Shown: piece by piece, positions 1,307 through 8,142 of the stretch
Layout of the letters: each line of letters opens with the position of its first letter
Position numbering within the stretch: the first letter of the stretch is position 1
Assembly (NCBI GenBank): GCA_937922705.1
Contig: CALAIW010000002.1
Coordinates: forward strand, 1-64,000
Origin: an uncultured bacterium
Lineage (GTDB): Bacteria; Atribacterota; Atribacteria; Atribacterales; Caldatribacteriaceae
Length of the DNA stretch: 64,000 bases
Direction: 5' to 3'
The notes under the pieces: model-generated
What the model saw: only the letters and a program-made list of their open reading frames with translations
The model's database searches: none
What the model was told of the DNA's origin: nothing
Made by a program: the position numbers and the translations under genes

Positions 1307-2626
1307 ATGAAGGTGACCTTTATCGGCGCAGGAAGTCTTGTATTCACCCAGAGGCTTCTTGTAGATCTTGCGAGGCTTCCCTTTCCTCGAGAGGAGATTG
1401 AGGTTGCCCTCGTAGACATTAACGAGCGTCGTCTTTCGTATATCTCGCGCATTGCCCAGAGGATTTTTCGGGAGAACAACATCCCTGTAGAGAAGATTTT
1501 TGCTACTACGGATCGGAGAAAAGCCCTTCCTGGTTCTCAATACGTGTTTATTTCGATTCTTGTGGGTGATATTGAGGCTATTCGGAAAGATATTGAAATT
1601 CCTCTTCGGTATGGGGTCGACCAGTGTATTGGAGACACTATAGGTCCTGGAGGTGTGTTCAGGGCCCTGAGAACGGCGCCGGTCATTCTTGATATCTGCC
1701 AAGACGTAGGGGAACTTTGTCCAGAGGCCTTTGTCTTCAATTACACGAATCCAATGTCTATCCTCTGCTGGGTGGTAAAAGAACGGTATCCTAACCTGCG
1801 GTTTTACGGTCTTTGTCACAGTGTGCAGAACACCGCAAGGCAAATTGCCGAGTACATGGGTTGGCCTTTTGAAGGGCTCGAATATTGGGTTGCAGGAATC
1901 AACCATCAAGCCTGGTTTCTAGAACTTCGTTTGAATGGAAAGGACGTGTATCCACTTTTGCGCAAGAGAGTCGAGGATCCGGAACTCTGGAAGATGGACA
2001 CAACGAGAATAGAGATGTTCAAACACCTTGGGTATTACGTAACCGAATCGAGTGGTCACAATTCTGAATACAATCCGTGGTTTCGAAAAAGGCCGGACCT
2101 TGTAGAGCGGTTTACCCCTGGTGGAGGATGGAATGGAGAAACAGGTTTCATCTTAAAGCTTTATGGTGTAGATAGGGAAAGGTACGAAGAAGAACTTGAG
2201 CGCATTGCGAATGGGGAAGTATCTATACCCTATGAAGAAAGCGGAGAATATGGGATGAAGATCATTTATGCCCTTGAGGGTGGCGGCATTTTTCGAGCAA
2301 ATATGAACCTCCCCAATCGGGGTGTTATTACTAACCTTCCCCCTCAATGTATTGTTGAGGTTCCTTGCTTTGTAGAGAGGGGACGTATTCGTCCTGCCTT
2401 TGTGGGAGATTTACCAGTGCAGCTTGCTGCTCTCAATCGAATGGTTGTGCAAAGCCAGGAAATGGCAGTACGGGCTATCCTTGAGGGGAAAAAAGAATAC
2501 GTTTACTATGCCCTTTACTATGACCCCCTCACGGCAGCAGTTCTCTCGCTTGACGAAATTACAAAAATGGTTGACGAGATGTTTGTAGCTGAGCGAGAGT
2601 ACCTTCCAGCAGTCTTCTATTTCTAA
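1307..2626 (+). CDS. GH4 family alpha-galactosidase-like glycosidase
   Basis: The 439-residue protein is a second GH4 enzyme beside the one upstream. The N-terminus has the NAD-binding start MKVTFIGAGSLVF. Further on are GDTIGPGGVFRALR, NYTNPMSILCW, the metal-ligand motif GLCHSVQ and GINHQAWFLE, so cofactor and metal sites look complete. The CHSV signature again points to alpha-galactosidase-type activity. ATG at 1307 is chosen because GGAGGTG at 1294-1300 lies at the right distance; the earlier in-frame GTG at 1298 sits inside that ribosome site. The two paralogues differ around the segment before GINHQAW, where the upstream copy has an insertion. Substrate specificity is inferred. Confidence 0.9.
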   Translation: MKVTFIGAGSLVFTQRLLVDLARLPFPREEIEVALVDINERRLSYISRIAQRIFRENNIPVEKIFATTDRRKALPGSQYVFISILVGDIEAIRKDIEIPLRYGVDQCIGDTIGPGGVFRALRTAPVILDICQDVGELCPEAFVFNYTNPMSILCWVVKERYPNLRFYGLCHSVQNTARQIAEYMGWPFEGLEYWVAGINHQAWFLELRLNGKDVYPLLRKRVEDPELWKMDTTRIEMFKHLGYYVTESSGHNSEYNPWFRKRPDLVERFTPGGGWNGETGFILKLYGVDRERYEEELERIANGEVSIPYEESGEYGMKIIYALEGGGIFRANMNLPNRGVITNLPPQCIVEVPCFVERGRIRPAFVGDLPVQLAALNRMVVQSQEMAVRAILEGKKEYVYYALYYDPLTAAVLSLDEITKMVDEMFVAEREYLPAVFYF

Positions 2627-2644
2627 AAAAATTTCTCCCCCTTC

Positions 2645-2672
2645 TTGACTATTCCTATCGCTATGCTATAAT
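2645..2672 (+). promoter_or_regulatory. Housekeeping promoter of the Met-type T-box operon
   Basis: TTGACT at 2645-2650 and TATAAT at 2667-2672 are separated by 16 bp. Transcription should start near 2679, immediately upstream of the T-box leader. This is one of the best promoter matches in the window. Confidence 0.85.
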
Positions 2673-2678
2673 ATGCCT

Positions 2679-2924
2679 AGCGTGGCAAAGCGGTGAAGGG
2701 GATGAGTAGTCAGGAGGGGGATGAGAGAGAGCCGGGGGAAGGTGGAAGCCCGGTATCCCTGGCCTGATGAACATGGCCCTGGAGCTTTGGTGATGAAAGG
2801 TAAGTAGTTACCAACGCTTGGTCCCCGTTACAGGACCCGAGGTAACGAGGCCAGTTCTTTTGCACTGGCGAAGAAGGGTGGTACCACGAGCATAAACCCC
2901 TCGTCCCTTCGGACGAGGGGTTTT
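2679..2924 (+). promoter_or_regulatory. T-box riboswitch leader, probably methionine (AUG specifier)
   Basis: The leader ends with the conserved T-box AAGGGTGGTACCACG at 2874-2888 followed by a strong intrinsic terminator. Stem I features (GATGAG near 2701, AGAGAG, GGTGGAAGCC) precede a specifier segment GAACATGGCCCTGGAGC near 2769-2785. Aligned from its 3' side with the second T-box in the window, the specifier reads ATG at 2773-2775, the methionine codon. The UGGU in the T-box bulge fits a tRNA with discriminator A73, as in tRNA-Met. Uncharged tRNA-Met would favour antitermination and expression of the homocysteine module that follows. The class is certain; the specifier assignment is inferred from alignment and gene context. 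Confidence 0.88.
2897..2924 (+). terminator. Regulated terminator of the Met-type T-box
   Basis: A perfect 10-bp GC-rich stem (2897-2906 with 2911-2920, loop CTTC) is followed by TTTT. Pairing of the T-box with the 5' arm would form the competing antiterminator. Confidence 0.9.
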
Positions 2925-2955
2925 GCTTTATACTACAAATAGGGGGGTGGCACCT

Positions 2956-4185
2956 GTGAGCAAGACGCTTCGGACTTATGAGGAAATCAACGAAAAGATT
3001 GCAAAAGGACAAGTGGTCGTAGTCACTGCCGAGGAGGTTATTGACCTTGTTCGAGAGAAAGGGATTGAACGGGTAGCCCGAGAGGTGGATGTAGTTACTA
3101 CCGGGACTTTTGGTATTATGTGTTCTTCGGGAGCTTTTTTAAACATAGGTCATACTAAGCCCCGGATGAAAATTCACGAAGCCTATCTCAATGGGGTCAT
3201 GGCTTACGCTGGTCTTGCAGCTGTAGATCTCTATATTGGGGCAACACAACCTGCTAAAGACGATCCTCTTAACAAGGTCCACCCTGGAGAGTTTCGCTAC
3301 GGAGGGGGTCATGTCATCGAAGATTTAGTGGCGGGAAGAGACGTCCTTCTTGAAGCCTATGCGTATGGAACAGATTGTTACCCAAGGAAAAAGCTTGTTA
3401 CCTGGATCAACATTCGAGATCTTAACGAAGCGTACCTTTTTAATCCTCGGAATGCCTATCAGAACTACAATGTAGCTGTGAACCCTTCTGATAAGACTCT
3501 TTACACGTACCTTGGAGTTCTCCTTCCTCGCATGGGTAATGCTGGATACTCCTCGGCAGGACAGCTCTCGCCCCTTCTGAACGATCCTTTTTATCGAGTA
3601 ATTGGTATAGGAACACGGATTTTCCTTGGTGGAGGTATTGGGTATGTGGTCTGGCAGGGAACCCAGCATAATCCAAGCGTTGCGCGGAATGAACGGGGTA
3701 TACCCAAAGGAGGAGCTGGAACTCTTGCGGTTATAGGAGATCTCAAAGGCATGAGCCCGAAATGGATCCAAGGAGTAAGTATCCGTGGGTATGGATGTTC
3801 CCTTGCCCTTGGCCTTGGAGTTCCCATTCCCATCCTCGATGAGGAAACTCTGTACTACTGCTCGGTGAGCGATGAGGAGATTCTTGCTCCTGTGGTGGAC
3901 TACAGTCACGCGTATCCTCACGGGACAGGAGAAGTCCTTGGGTATGTGAGTTATGCTGAGCTTCGAAGCGGTATCATAAAAATACAGGGCAAGGAAGTTC
4001 CCACTGCCCCCATGTCAAGCTACAGTAAGGCAAGGGAGGTTGCGCTCACCTTGAAACAGTGGATTCAAGAAGGAAAGTTCACCCTGACAAAGCCTGTGGC
4101 TCCACTTCCAGGAGTAGAATCTGGTGTACGGTTCAAGAATCTTGTCGAGCGGCCTGTTGAAACAAGTGTCCTTGTTGGGAGGTGA
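2956..4185 (+). CDS. DUF39/HcyBio family homocysteine biosynthesis protein
   Basis: The 409-residue protein belongs to the COG1900 (DUF39) family. In methanogens and some anaerobes this family makes homocysteine from aspartate semialdehyde and a sulfur donor, bypassing homoserine esters. Visible family features are the Cys-containing MCSSGAFLNIGHTKPR segment, the Gly-rich GGGIGYVVWQGTQHNP stretch and a conserved-looking YYCSVSDEEI Cys. The protein ends without the tandem CBS domains found in longer relatives. GTG at 2956 follows AGGGGGGTGG. An upstream methionine-type T-box and downstream NIL-ferredoxin and COG2122 genes strongly support a role in methionine supply. The enzymatic details of the family are incompletely known. 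Confidence 0.88.
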   Translation: MSKTLRTYEEINEKIAKGQVVVVTAEEVIDLVREKGIERVAREVDVVTTGTFGIMCSSGAFLNIGHTKPRMKIHEAYLNGVMAYAGLAAVDLYIGATQPAKDDPLNKVHPGEFRYGGGHVIEDLVAGRDVLLEAYAYGTDCYPRKKLVTWINIRDLNEAYLFNPRNAYQNYNVAVNPSDKTLYTYLGVLLPRMGNAGYSSAGQLSPLLNDPFYRVIGIGTRIFLGGGIGYVVWQGTQHNPSVARNERGIPKGGAGTLAVIGDLKGMSPKWIQGVSIRGYGCSLALGLGVPIPILDEETLYYCSVSDEEILAPVVDYSHAYPHGTGEVLGYVSYAELRSGIIKIQGKEVPTAPMSSYSKAREVALTLKQWIQEGKFTLTKPVAPLPGVESGVRFKNLVERPVETSVLVGR

Positions 4186-4190
4186 CTCCT

Positions 4191-4604
4191 GTGAATGGAA
4201 ATGGGAAAAAGATTGTTCTCCGTTTTCCTCAAGAAGTTGCTGACCGACCCATAGTATGTGAACTTGCTTTGCGCTTTGGGTTGCAGTTTAATATTCTTCG
4301 AGCCTCTATCTCTCCACACCGAGAAGGCATCATGGTGATGGAGGTTATCGGAAGCCGAGAAAAACAAGAAGAGGGTCTTGCATTTCTTGCAAGTCGCGGA
4401 GTTCTTGTTGAGCCTTTGAGTCAGGACATCCGTATGATAGAGGAGCGGTGTTACCACTGTGGGGCCTGTGTTGGGCTTTGCCCAACAGGGGCTCTTTTTA
4501 TGGAGCGTCCTTCTTTCCTTGTGCGATATGATCCAGGAAAATGCATTGCCTGTGAACTTTGCGTTCTTGGTTGTCCTGCCCGCGCTATGGAGGCGTTGAT
4601 CTGA
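4191..4604 (+). CDS. NIL-domain 2[4Fe-4S] ferredoxin of the homocysteine module
   Basis: The 137-residue protein has an N-terminal NIL-like domain (about residues 1-80) and two C-terminal [4Fe-4S] motifs, CYHCGACVGLCP and CIACELCVLGCP. In methanogens a NIL-ferredoxin of this type works with the DUF39 protein in homocysteine formation, probably in sulfur mobilisation or electron transfer. GTG at 4191 is chosen because GGGAGGTG at 4177-4184 lies 6 bp upstream; the alternative GTG at 4182 overlaps that site. The preceding gene's stop lies at 4183-4185, so the two are translationally close. The family call is secure. Confidence 0.88.
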   Translation: MNGNGKKIVLRFPQEVADRPIVCELALRFGLQFNILRASISPHREGIMVMEVIGSREKQEEGLAFLASRGVLVEPLSQDIRMIEERCYHCGACVGLCPTGALFMERPSFLVRYDPGKCIACELCVLGCPARAMEALI

Positions 4605-5336
4605 GTGCATCGGTATGTTGAACGATGGTACCGGAGGTACATGCAAGCCGATGGTCTTGTGTCCTTCTCGGTGAAGGTGCGGGAGAGTGACCTTTACATC
4701 TTCGCCGAGAAGGACCTAAAGGAACAAGCAGAAGCCCGTCTTATAAGAGAGCGGAAGAACCTTGAGGCGTACATTCGTTACGATCCCCGTTTCTTAGTGT
4801 CTCTTGCTCCTATTGTTCTTTCTCCCTTTGCCCCACCTATATGCCGTCGCATGAGCTGGGCGGCGCAAGAAGCTGGAGTGGGTCCAATGGCAGCAGTTGC
4901 TGGAGCCATTAACGAGGCTGTTGCTGAAGAGCTTCTTCCCTTAAGCTCTGAGCTCATTATTGAAAACGGTGGAGACCTTCTTGTAGCCTCGTCACAGGAA
5001 AGGGTTGTAGCTATTTACGCCGGTGAAGAATCGCCGTTCAGTTTCAAAGTTGGTATCAAACTTCCGGGAGGGAAAATCTGGGGAGTTGCTACTTCCTCGG
5101 GGAAGGTTGGTCCTTCCTTAAGCTTTGGGCGTGCTGATGCAGTGGTAGTTGTGGCGACTTCTGCAGCACTTGCCGATGCGTGGGCAACGAGCCTTGCAAA
5201 CCGTGTTCGAACACGAAGTGACGTCACTTCTGCTTTGCGCCTTGCCCGACGCATTTCCTCTCTTCAAGGAGTAGTTGTTGTTTTTGAGGATCTCCTTGGG
5301 GTTGAGGGAAACATTCAGCTTGAGAAGCTGATATAG
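4605..5336 (+). CDS. COG2122/UPF0280 family ApbE-like protein
   Basis: The 243-residue protein matches the UPF0280 family, distantly related to the flavin-transferase ApbE. The central segment MSWAAQEAGVGPMAAVAGAI and a later GVATSSG stretch are typical. The family co-occurs with DUF39 and NIL-ferredoxin genes in anaerobes, and the three are consecutive here: the stop of the ferredoxin gene (TGA, 4602-4604) directly abuts the GTG start. A role in sulfur handling for homocysteine synthesis is inferred from this context; the biochemical activity is not established. The last residues are followed by a short gap before a separate TPR gene. Confidence 0.82.
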   Translation: MHRYVERWYRRYMQADGLVSFSVKVRESDLYIFAEKDLKEQAEARLIRERKNLEAYIRYDPRFLVSLAPIVLSPFAPPICRRMSWAAQEAGVGPMAAVAGAINEAVAEELLPLSSELIIENGGDLLVASSQERVVAIYAGEESPFSFKVGIKLPGGKIWGVATSSGKVGPSLSFGRADAVVVVATSAALADAWATSLANRVRTRSDVTSALRLARRISSLQGVVVVFEDLLGVEGNIQLEKLI

Positions 5337-5382
5337 CTCTTTTCTGCTAAAATTTAAGAAAAATGTGAAAAAGGGGTAGGAT

Positions 5383-6480
5383 GTGGTGTTTCTTCTGTTT
5401 CTTGCAGCGCTCGCACTTGTGGCGTTATATCTTTCGCGTATTGAAGTTCGGGACATTTTTTCTCCAGAGCTCCGAAAACTTGTGCTTCTGGCTTTTACGC
5501 ATCTTCGGGAAAAGCGCTATACTGAGGCTATTCAGGCGTACAACGTTCTTCTTGAGTTGAAGCCTGACTATCCTGAAGGCTATGTCAATCGTGGAAACGC
5601 TTATTTTGCTCTTGGTGAGCTAGATAAAGCTATCGCTGATTACTCAAGGGCTATTGAATTGCGACCCAATTTCGCCGAGGCTTATAACAATCGGGGTAAT
5701 GCCTACCTTTCTCAAGGCCGGATTACAGAAGCCCTGCAAGATCTTTCAAGGGCTTGCGAGCTTAACCCTCACCTTTCTGAGGCCTTTTTTAACAGAGCTA
5801 TGGCACTTTCGGAGGTTGGGAAGTCAAAGGAGGCTCTGGAGGATCTTTCGCGATGTATTCTTCTTAACCCCTCTGATCCTGAAGCCCTCTATTACCGAGC
5901 GCTTTTTGTCTTGCGGTACCAAGGATGTGATGAAGGGGTAGCCCAGGATGTGTCAAGGGCGTTGATGTTGAGGCCTATGGATCCAAAGCTCTACATGCTT
6001 CGAGGCACGTACTTTTTCCAGAGAGGAGAATATGAGAAGGCACTTGAAGATTTTTCCAAGGTTATCAGTCTACGGCGGGAAAACCTTCGGGCTCACTACC
6101 TTAAAGGATCTGTTTTACTTGAGCTTGGGCGATATGAAGAGGCTAGAGAGAACTTTAGTAACGCTATAGCTATTGACCCCGCTTTCTTTCGAGCGTATTT
6201 TGCCCGTGGTTTTTGCTTTTACAGAGAAGGGAAATATGAAGAGGCTCTTCAGGATTTCTCGGCAGCACTCCTCCTTCGTCCTGATTTTCTTCGGGGATAC
6301 GCTTTTCGGGCACTTACCTATAGAGCTTTGGGGAGATATGAAGAGGCCGAAAAGGACCGAGCGTATCTTGAGGAACAGGGTTTCCCTTGGAAAGGTTTTC
6401 TGGAAACGGGAGAAGCAACGGGTGATTACCTCGAGGAAGAAGTGGGGGTTTTGGAGTTTTCAGAAAACGTGTTACCGTGA
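5383..6480 (+). CDS. Membrane-anchored TPR repeat protein
   Basis: The 365-residue protein starts with a hydrophobic segment (about residues 1-18), probably a membrane anchor. About eight tandem tetratricopeptide repeats follow, with the typical G-Y/N-A-Y---A-Y--A---P pattern (for example GNAYFALGELDKAIADYSRAIELRP). Such proteins are scaffolds for protein-protein interaction; the partner cannot be told from sequence. Start is GTG 5383 or GTG 5386, both after the weak site AAGGGGTAGG. The gene is separated by 46 bp from the homocysteine module and is followed 6 bp later by a radical SAM gene, with which it is probably co-transcribed. Confidence 0.8.
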   Translation: MVFLLFLAALALVALYLSRIEVRDIFSPELRKLVLLAFTHLREKRYTEAIQAYNVLLELKPDYPEGYVNRGNAYFALGELDKAIADYSRAIELRPNFAEAYNNRGNAYLSQGRITEALQDLSRACELNPHLSEAFFNRAMALSEVGKSKEALEDLSRCILLNPSDPEALYYRALFVLRYQGCDEGVAQDVSRALMLRPMDPKLYMLRGTYFFQRGEYEKALEDFSKVISLRRENLRAHYLKGSVLLELGRYEEARENFSNAIAIDPAFFRAYFARGFCFYREGKYEEALQDFSAALLLRPDFLRGYAFRALTYRALGRYEEAEKDRAYLEEQGFPWKGFLETGEATGDYLEEEVGVLEFSENVLP

Positions 6481-6486
6481 TGGAGT

Positions 6487-7536
6487 ATGGAAGAACCGTA
6501 TGAGGGATGTTGTGAGCTTTGTGGAGAGCGGTCCTTTCTTGTTGCAGATGTCCTAGGTCTTTGCCGGCGATGCATTATAGAAAGGTTTTCGGAGGCACTT
6601 CCTCGCATAGAGAAAGTTCATGCCAAGGTTCGTAGGTCTTTTGGCCTTCCTTATCCTGCAGAGAGTGAGTCTCCAGCATGCAGGCTTTGCATGCACAACT
6701 GTGGAGGAGGGGGTGTGAGTTTCTGTGGACTTCTTGAAGGAGGAGAGCGCTTCGCAGGGACTGCAAGAAAGGGGCTTCTTGAATGGTACTATGATGATCT
6801 TCCGACCAATTGTGTAGCAACTCCTTTTTGCCCTGAGCAGAAACACTTTGGCTACCAAAACCTTGCGGTCTTTTACGCCGGCTGCTCCTTTAACTGTCTT
6901 TTTTGTCAAAACTGGCATTTTCACGAGCTTCTCAGCAGACGTGAACCTCTGGTAAGCGTTGAAGAACTCCTTCAGGCGGTTCATCCAAGGGTTTCCTGTG
7001 TGTGTTTTTTTGGAGGAGACCCCGGCCCCCAGATAGCTCATGCTCTTGCTTTTGCCCGGAAAGTGCGGGGGAGGCTACGCATTTGCTGGGAGACAAACGG
7101 AGCTATGGACTTCAGGATTCTGCAAGAGATGTACAAGCTTTCTTGTGAGAGTGGTGGAATTCTTAAGGTGGATATAAAAGCGTTTGATGAGCGGATTCAC
7201 TTTGCTCTCACCGGGGTTGCGAACCGAAGAACTCTTGAGAATTTCTTATGGCTTGCTACGGAGAGCAAAAAGCACAATCGGTACACTGTTGTCGCCAGTA
7301 CTCTTCTTGTTCCTGGTTACATTACTGAAGACGAAGTTGAAAAGATAGCCAGTTTCATCGCTCAGGTTAATCCAGATATTCCCTATGTACTCCTTGGCTT
7401 TGCTCCGAATTTCTTTTTCCACAATCTTCCGACAACATCGGTTAATCATGCTCAAGAGGCACTGCAAAGATGTAAAAAGGTAGGACTCAAAAATGTTTCA
7501 GTGGGCAATACATTCCTTCTCTCCCACTGGTACTAA
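6487..7536 (+). CDS. Radical SAM protein, pyruvate formate-lyase activase-like (COG1180/1313 type)
   Basis: The 349-residue protein has a radical SAM CxxxCxxC at Cys133/137/140 (CSFNCLFCQNW) that should bind a [4Fe-4S] cluster and S-adenosylmethionine, followed by FGGDPGPQ and a downstream TIM-barrel. An unusual Cys-rich N-terminus precedes it: a zinc-ribbon-like pair (Cys9/12 and Cys26/29) and a second group (Cys65/68/72/80). Members of this family activate glycyl-radical enzymes or modify proteins; no glycyl-radical enzyme lies nearby, so the target is unknown. ATG 6487 lies 6 bp after the TPR gene stop. The gene converges on the RNA candidate that follows. Confidence 0.8.
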   Translation: MEEPYEGCCELCGERSFLVADVLGLCRRCIIERFSEALPRIEKVHAKVRRSFGLPYPAESESPACRLCMHNCGGGGVSFCGLLEGGERFAGTARKGLLEWYYDDLPTNCVATPFCPEQKHFGYQNLAVFYAGCSFNCLFCQNWHFHELLSRREPLVSVEELLQAVHPRVSCVCFFGGDPGPQIAHALAFARKVRGRLRICWETNGAMDFRILQEMYKLSCESGGILKVDIKAFDERIHFALTGVANRRTLENFLWLATESKKHNRYTVVASTLLVPGYITEDEVEKIASFIAQVNPDIPYVLLGFAPNFFFHNLPTTSVNHAQEALQRCKKVGLKNVSVGNTFLLSHWY

Positions 7537-7537
7537 C

Positions 7538-7772
7538 AAAAAACCACGGACCCTAACAAACCCCTCAGTCCTAATTTTTGCTTCAGGGACCGGAGCTCTA
7601 CAATCCCCGTAGGAGCATCAGGAGTAACCCCTCAGCTCGTTAGGACCTTGAGATTCCTCAGGATCCGTGGCATATCCCACAGGCTCCAGCAAACCTTCAA
7701 TCGCTGAAACCCAGCACTTTGGGTAACCCTCTATGCCAGACTTCTGACATCCAGCCTCCTCGAACCTGCGGT
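7538..7772 (-). ncRNA. Putative independently transcribed structured RNA, family not recognised
   Basis: This 619-bp gene-less interval contains, on the minus strand, a strong promoter, about 235 nt with strong pairing potential, and an end with six T residues. Two domains can be drawn. In the first, CCGCAGG (7771-7765) pairs with CCTGTGG (7683-7677) around small hairpins such as GTCAGaagtCTGGC. In the second, CCACGGA (7670-7664) pairs perfectly with TCCGTGG (7550-7544), directly followed by TTTTTT (7543-7538). No open reading frame of note lies on this strand and no minus-strand gene follows, so it looks like an independent small RNA rather than a leader. I compared it by memory with 6S, SRP, RNase P and common riboswitches without a match. 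Confidence 0.6.
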
Positions 7773-7778
7773 AAGCTT

Positions 7779-7807
7779 ATTATCCCCCTTTGTGTTCCCT
7801 TTGTCAA
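7779..7807 (-). promoter_or_regulatory. Minus-strand promoter of the RNA candidate
   Basis: On the minus strand, consensus TTGACA (7807-7802) and GATAAT (7784-7779) are separated by exactly 17 bp. Transcription should start near 7772 and run toward 7538. It is back to back with the trp promoter at 7832. Confidence 0.75.
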
Positions 7808-7831
7808 GGGGTTAAAAAATTCTTGTACCTC

Positions 7832-7860
7832 TTGACTGAAGGGTGTTTGCATGGTATAAA
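7832..7860 (+). promoter_or_regulatory. trp operon promoter
   Basis: TTGACT (7832-7837) and TATAAA (7855-7860) are separated by 17 bp. Transcription should start near 7867, at the 5' end of the tryptophan-type T-box leader. Confidence 0.85.
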
Positions 7861-7866
7861 AAGGCC

Positions 7867-8142
7867 AAAGTTTATAGGGCTTGGGCGATGAAGAGGGGGA
7901 GTAGCCTCTTGTTTGGGGCTTAGAGAGAGCCTGGGTTAGGTGGGAGCCAGGTAGTCCCTGAGGGGTGAATGGGCCTCGGAGCTTTTCATCGAAATCCCTG
8001 CAAGGGAGAGTAGATTGAAAAGGGTCTTTCCCTTTAAAGGAAGACGGGTATCAAAGCGTACCCGGTTGAGTGGGTAGCGTATGCTACCAACAAGAGTGGC
8101 ACCACGAGGAAAAAGCCCTCGTCTCTTGACGAGGGCTTTTTT
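7867..8142 (+). promoter_or_regulatory. T-box riboswitch leader, tryptophan (UGG specifier)
   Basis: The leader has typical Stem I elements (GATGAAGAG, AGAGAGAGCC, GGTGGGAGCC), the T-box core AAGAGTGGCACCACG at 8092-8106 and a terminator. The specifier segment GTGAATGGGCCTCGGAGC gives TGG at 7970-7972 when aligned from its 3' side with the other T-box here, the only tryptophan codon. The bulge reads UGGC, whose last base would pair with G73, the usual discriminator of bacterial tRNA-Trp; the methionine-type leader has UGGU for A73. The trp operon lies immediately downstream, so low charging of tRNA-Trp should switch it on. Confidence 0.93.
8115..8142 (+). terminator. Regulated terminator of the Trp T-box
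   Basis: A perfect 9-bp stem (8115-8123 with 8128-8136, loop TCTT) is followed by six T residues. Its 5' arm can alternatively pair with the T-box to form the antiterminator. Confidence 0.92.

Follow-up and report, generated by a model that had tools for sequence, protein, structure and literature searches.

A stand-alone structured RNA gene of Atribacterota, its multi-copy family and its likeness to Dictyoglomi-1 RNA

What is encoded on the minus strand beside the trp T-box leader of an uncultured Caldatribacteriaceae bacterium? The initial annotation of a 64,000-nucleotide stretch of its genome (contig CALAIW010000002.1, positions 1 to 64,000, referred to here as the window) read at this place an RNA of about 235 nt, regulatory or housekeeping, that matched no known class. 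Here we describe the gene, the family to which it belongs, and the functions that its conservation might reflect.

A two-module RNA gene with its own promoter

By sequence, positions 7771 to 7538 of the minus strand form a stand-alone RNA gene of about 235 nt that has a sigma-70-type promoter of its own and ends in U6, and we consider it near certain that this is the gene for a structured RNA. The features of the locus are as follows.

7812 to 7821, minus strand: UP-element-like A/T tract AATTTTTTAA, then CCCC, 5' of the -35 hexamer (sequence comparison)
7802 to 7807, minus strand: -35 hexamer TTGACA (sequence; position kept across the family)
7779 to 7784, minus strand: -10 hexamer GATAAT (sequence; predicted start near 7772)
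7677 to 7771, minus strand: module 1, a divergent copy of the family module, with closing helix CCGCAGGUUC.../...GAGCCUGUGG and a G.G mismatch at 7758/7690 (fold)
7543 to 7671, minus strand: module 2, with helix 7671-7658 / 7556-7543 and a G.G mismatch at 7657/7557 (fold, covariance model R1, covariation)
7538 to 7543, minus strand: U6 tract directly 3' of the closing helix; a U-rich end is kept in nearly all copies
6487 to 7536, plus strand: convergent radical-SAM-like open reading frame (CxxxCxxC, as seen in the letters), whose end lies 2 nt away from the 3' end of the RNA
7879 to 8129, plus strand: trp T-box leader, the divergent neighbour (Rfam)

The layout first read from the letters was found in place: TTGACA and GATAAT (7807-7802 and 7784-7779) are separated by 17 nt and match 11 of 12 consensus bases, six T residues stand at 7543-7538, the downstream neighbour is the convergent frame rather than a gene on the minus strand, and the promoter lies back to back with that of trp (plus-strand TTGACT-17-TATAAA at 7832-7860). 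Taken by itself, the promoter match is at chance level, with one found against 1.5 expected in shuffles; it is significant because of its conservation across the family. In 60 of 68 copies (first modules), TTGAC occurs 30-34 nt 5' of the model start, against 0.6 expected in shuffles, and 54 of these 60 have an NA...T hexamer at a spacer of 16-18 nt, 49 of them at exactly 17. The second modules of two-module RNAs lack a promoter of their own. This conservation of promoter and structure suggests that the window RNA is transcribed.

An A/T tract and C run (A5T6-type, as at 7812-7821 and near 2630) precede TTGAC in many family copies and at strong promoters of the genus and of two Dictyoglomus genomes. 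Since the window's first T-box has a similar tract in front of it, this seems to be a feature of strong promoters in general.

The minus strand folds at -112.1 kcal/mol, compared with -79.2 +/- 4.2 for shuffled sequences (z -7.8; 0/200 shuffles as good), whereas the plus strand of the same stretch reaches only z -2.5. Two self-pairing domains, 7771-7677 and 7671-7543, were confirmed, although the closing helices are not the perfect 7-bp helices originally proposed: they are longer and interrupted by mismatches. In the predicted fold, that of module 1 consists of 10 bp, a mismatch, 2 bp, the G.G and 5 bp, and that of module 2 of 14 bp, an invariant G.G and 7 further bp, followed by two inner hairpin domains. 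Module 2 scores 136 bits with R1, a covariance model built from nine module-2 sequences of relatives and including its own sequence. The single structured RNA of two domains is rather a tandem of two copies of one module. Genomes G003, G004, G006 and G008 show the same arrangement, in which both modules have one and the same closing element; all four have homologues of module 1. In G006 and G008 this module has the interior of the commonest type in the family (the main type, below), so that the modules combined in this tandem belong to two types that elsewhere occur as separate genes. As the U6 tract follows directly on the closing helix of module 2, this helix probably doubles as the terminator stem.

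An undescribed family with a covarying closing helix

The window RNA belongs to an undescribed multi-copy family that is absent from Rfam and occurs in nearly every genome of one Atribacterota order. With R1, the family was detected in 24 of 25 genomes from the host's order (genus Caldatribacterium), at 1-10 copies per genome; in the other 25 Atribacterota genomes the model gave no convincing member, its only match being at threshold. A second model, R2, run across 386 genomes, returned the same 24 genomes and one partial match elsewhere. At the DNA level, two genomes of the genus carry full-length homologues (76-79% identity), and others of the order carry partial ones. The genome of the window carries the family at four places (the window, C21, C11 and C15), and several genomes of the order have a single copy only. 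Since it is kept in nearly every genome of the order, the family is probably not dispensable.

Several weaker matches were set aside. Those in G045, G347, G066, G113 and G399 were partial, very short or near threshold and were judged to be chance, and three matches outside Atribacterota in the genome collection (Sphingopyxis, Oscillospiraceae and Alphaproteobacteria) were not the family RNA. Viral contigs gave no match to the 3' motif and 20 matches to the 5' motif alone, none of them with the RNA; these were also attributed to chance.

The Rfam search called for at the outset gave the window RNA no match that reached a gathering score; when E values up to 10 were admitted, the matches were chance ones that fell far short of any cut-off, in agreement with the first impression that no known class applies. 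Similarly, the proposed check for compensatory changes and conservation in relatives has now been made, and both were found. All copies share a 19-bp closing helix, in which 98.2% of pair cells are standard among 57 distinct copies, with double (compensatory) changes in 13 of the 19 pairs; 0/500 shuffles were as good on any measure, and sliding the partner strand lowered pairing to 33-53%. The 57-copy alignment was fitted by a model that contains the closing helix, which biases it somewhat in favour of pairing; a MAFFT alignment of the nine seed sequences agrees with it. The inner helices of module 2 also show covariation. Furthermore, in one member from each of the 24 genomes the sense strand folded with a mean z of -7.2, against -3.9 for the antisense strand, and all sampled genomes folded well. 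Rfam non-matches, covariation and promoter conservation together bear out the reading of a structured RNA that stands alone and has a promoter of its own.

The single mismatch interrupting the closing helix is G.G in 57/57 copies, and the pairs that flank it vary. The interiors, in contrast, differ widely and fall into 14 sequence clusters, the largest of which, the main type, comprises 43 copies in 19 genomes; the interior type of the window's module 2 has 12 copies in 11 genomes. Any function proposed for the family must therefore explain an invariant G.G in a covarying helix that is common to RNAs with differing interiors. One such proposal is a regulatory RNA that pairs with mRNAs or rRNA and whose closing helix serves only for stability and termination. 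Stand-alone genes, multiple copies, variable interiors and a conserved GGAGG-containing stretch in the main type are all in keeping with it. However, the fold is very compact, with few conserved single-stranded stretches, and a terminator stem needs no invariant G.G, so that we regard base pairing with other transcripts as rather unlikely.

Neighbouring genes and possible copy dispersal

The position next to the trp T-box raises the question of whether the RNA acts on its neighbours, either as a leader or attenuator in cis or as an antisense regulator of the trp or radical-SAM-like mRNA. Its end 2 nt from the convergent gene and its promoter back to back with that of trp would suit such a role. 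Across the family, however, the next gene shows no orientation bias (30 on the same strand vs 34, p 0.71), and therefore the family is not a leader; neighbours also differ between copies. The homologous RNA of G003 and G004 retains its radical-SAM-like convergent neighbour but not trp, so that the link to the trp T-box drawn at first is incidental. We consider regulation of a neighbouring gene very improbable.

The window and G004 align continuously over window positions 1319-7811, and the alignment ends just past the -35 of the RNA; beyond this break, G004 carries an FMN-riboswitch gene instead of trp. Synteny with Ca. Caldatribacterium californiense thus breaks just upstream of the RNA promoter (window 7811 against L143:6545), as if the RNA gene marked a point of rearrangement. 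Elsewhere in the window, a T-box leader (RF00230, 129 bits) lies within 2684-4604, 5' of frames that by sequence are HcyBio-like (homocysteine biosynthesis) and NIL/ferredoxin-type; an RF00230 T-box of this region is also present in G004 (L143:11453-11695).

Near-identical paralogs (mostly 89-98% identical) were observed in G014, G015 and G017 (L076, L080, L081, L084-L086, L124 and L125). Their homology is confined to promoter and RNA: it begins 41-130 nt upstream and extends no further than 0-17 nt beyond the U-tract; one pair in G014 is part of a larger duplication. These paralogs may reflect gene conversion or dispersal of the unit, and their sharing of promoter and RNA only could mean that the two disperse together as a genetic unit.

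Such copies invite a different reading, in which the family is a non-autonomous, MITE-like mobile repeat, its closing helix being the terminal inverted repeats of a unit that spread through genomes. This was considered first, on account of a 3' 25-mer that recurs in many genomes, and it is favoured by the multiple copies, many of them at contig ends, and by the narrow limits of homology in G014, G015 and G017. Against it, the inverted repeat does not include the promoter, which is nevertheless conserved and co-duplicated, and the compensatory changes preserve an RNA helix and its G.G, for which DNA repeats have no need. In addition, several genomes have only a single copy, and for 42 of 76 copies at least two of the adjoining gene families recur beside a copy in another genome, a conservation of position as expected of ordinary genes. 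On these tests of position, promoter and covariation, the repeats were rejected as MITE ends, and we judge a mobile repeat to be improbable.

Proposed function and relation to known RNAs

The reading that we prefer, and to which we give about even confidence, is that of a structural RNA, stand-alone and about 235 nt long, composed of two tandem family modules, that serves as the RNA of a ribonucleoprotein with the closing helix as its handle. Such an RNA would be made constitutively and in quantity and would terminate at its own closing helix; the closing helix and G.G pair would form a common protein-binding handle, and each type of interior would confer a different task or target, the window transcript carrying two such units together. 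A protein-binding handle is suggested because conservation is concentrated in the closing helix and G.G while the interiors differ. The idea derives solely from the location of this conservation, and RNA-RNA pairing, catalysis or RNA oligomers would fit it too.

A protein partner of another kind was also considered, the RNA being a sponge like CsrB or RsmZ that titrates CsrA through GGA motifs. CsrA is encoded in the genome and there are about six GGA per RNA (z +4), but ANGGA is not enriched (z -0.8), only 0-0.5 GGA per RNA fall in hairpin loops in every type, and conservation sits in the closing helix instead. We therefore find CsrA titration extremely improbable.

Established housekeeping RNAs were each assigned elsewhere in the same genome. 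Like the window RNA, 6S RNA has a long imperfect rod-like helix; the genome's only 6S match (RF00013) is at C26 and not at the window locus. The only RF00169 and RF00010 matches (SRP RNA and RNase P RNA) are at C19 and C2:78492-78845, and tmRNA is a separate gene.

As a ribonucleoprotein RNA, the family has an analogue, though by analogy only, in the Y RNAs of the Ro60 particle, where a terminal stem is the protein handle, the interior is variable and the 3' end is U-rich. It was rejected as a Y RNA, as no TROVE (Ro60) protein was found in the genome and the bulged-C motif of Y RNA was not seen. The large bacterial non-coding RNAs raiA, OLE, ROOL and GOLLD are likewise stand-alone and compact, with functions that are largely unknown; neither the window RNA nor two paralogs matched any of them in Rfam at E up to 10.

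The closest likeness is to Dictyoglomi-1 (RF01703). A 2010 paper reported it as a probable RNA from the phylum Dictyoglomi and gave its cis-regulatory role as ambiguous (PMC2864571); this was the only description found in our literature search. It is present in 6 of 7 Dictyoglomota genomes, at about two copies per genome. RF01703 gave no listed match for the window RNA when E values up to 10 were admitted, and, judged by its gathering score of 150 bits, none in the 25 genomes of the order; a main-type paralog gave a full-length, same-strand match of 11.7 bits, far short of that score, and did not fit the interior helices of RF01703, with deletions and large unmatched stretches in the alignment. 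Searching in the other direction, models made from Atribacterota sequences only matched both copies in the Dictyoglomota genome G127 with correct boundaries (R1, E 7e-4; R2, E 7e-6; in about 27 kb). Among six copies from other Dictyoglomota, R2 matched one, weakly, and R1 one, not significantly. A whole-genome R2 search of Dictyoglomota, in which 150 of about 1,500 candidates per genome were scored, recovered none of the known copies; R2 matched two when given the loci directly, and R3, which includes the two G127 sequences, recovered copies in the other Dictyoglomota genus. Several Dictyoglomota loci (L171-L175 and L186-L191) hold Dictyoglomi-1 copies well below the Rfam cut-off and with a different interior (62 bits in G127), and thus RF01703 itself seems too narrowly defined.

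The Dictyoglomi-1 closing helix (GCCACAGG..UCAA[G]GG.../...CC[G]UUGAGCCUGUGGC) is of the same length as that of the Atribacterota family and close to it in sequence, with a G.G mismatch at the same spacing. Both RNAs start straight after a TTGAC...TATAAT promoter and have a U-rich end, whereas their interiors are unrelated in sequence. We accordingly regard the Atribacterota RNAs as a related family with the Dictyoglomi-1 closing helix rather than as members of RF01703. The two probably descend from a common ancestor, though transfer, or convergence on one handle, may account for the likeness instead. More tentatively, and with somewhat less than even confidence, we propose a superfamily of abundant ribonucleoprotein RNAs in two phyla, with one handle (a 19-bp helix with an invariant G.G), lineage-specific and unrelated interiors, and sometimes two units per transcript. 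If this is true, Atribacterota and Dictyoglomota would have in this superfamily a core RNA-protein machine whose protein partner awaits discovery. With the present family, a little-studied phylum gains a well-supported class of RNA, and the orphan Dictyoglomi-1 RNA is joined by a related family of many more sequences; as some Dictyoglomus species are cultured, the function can be tested there.
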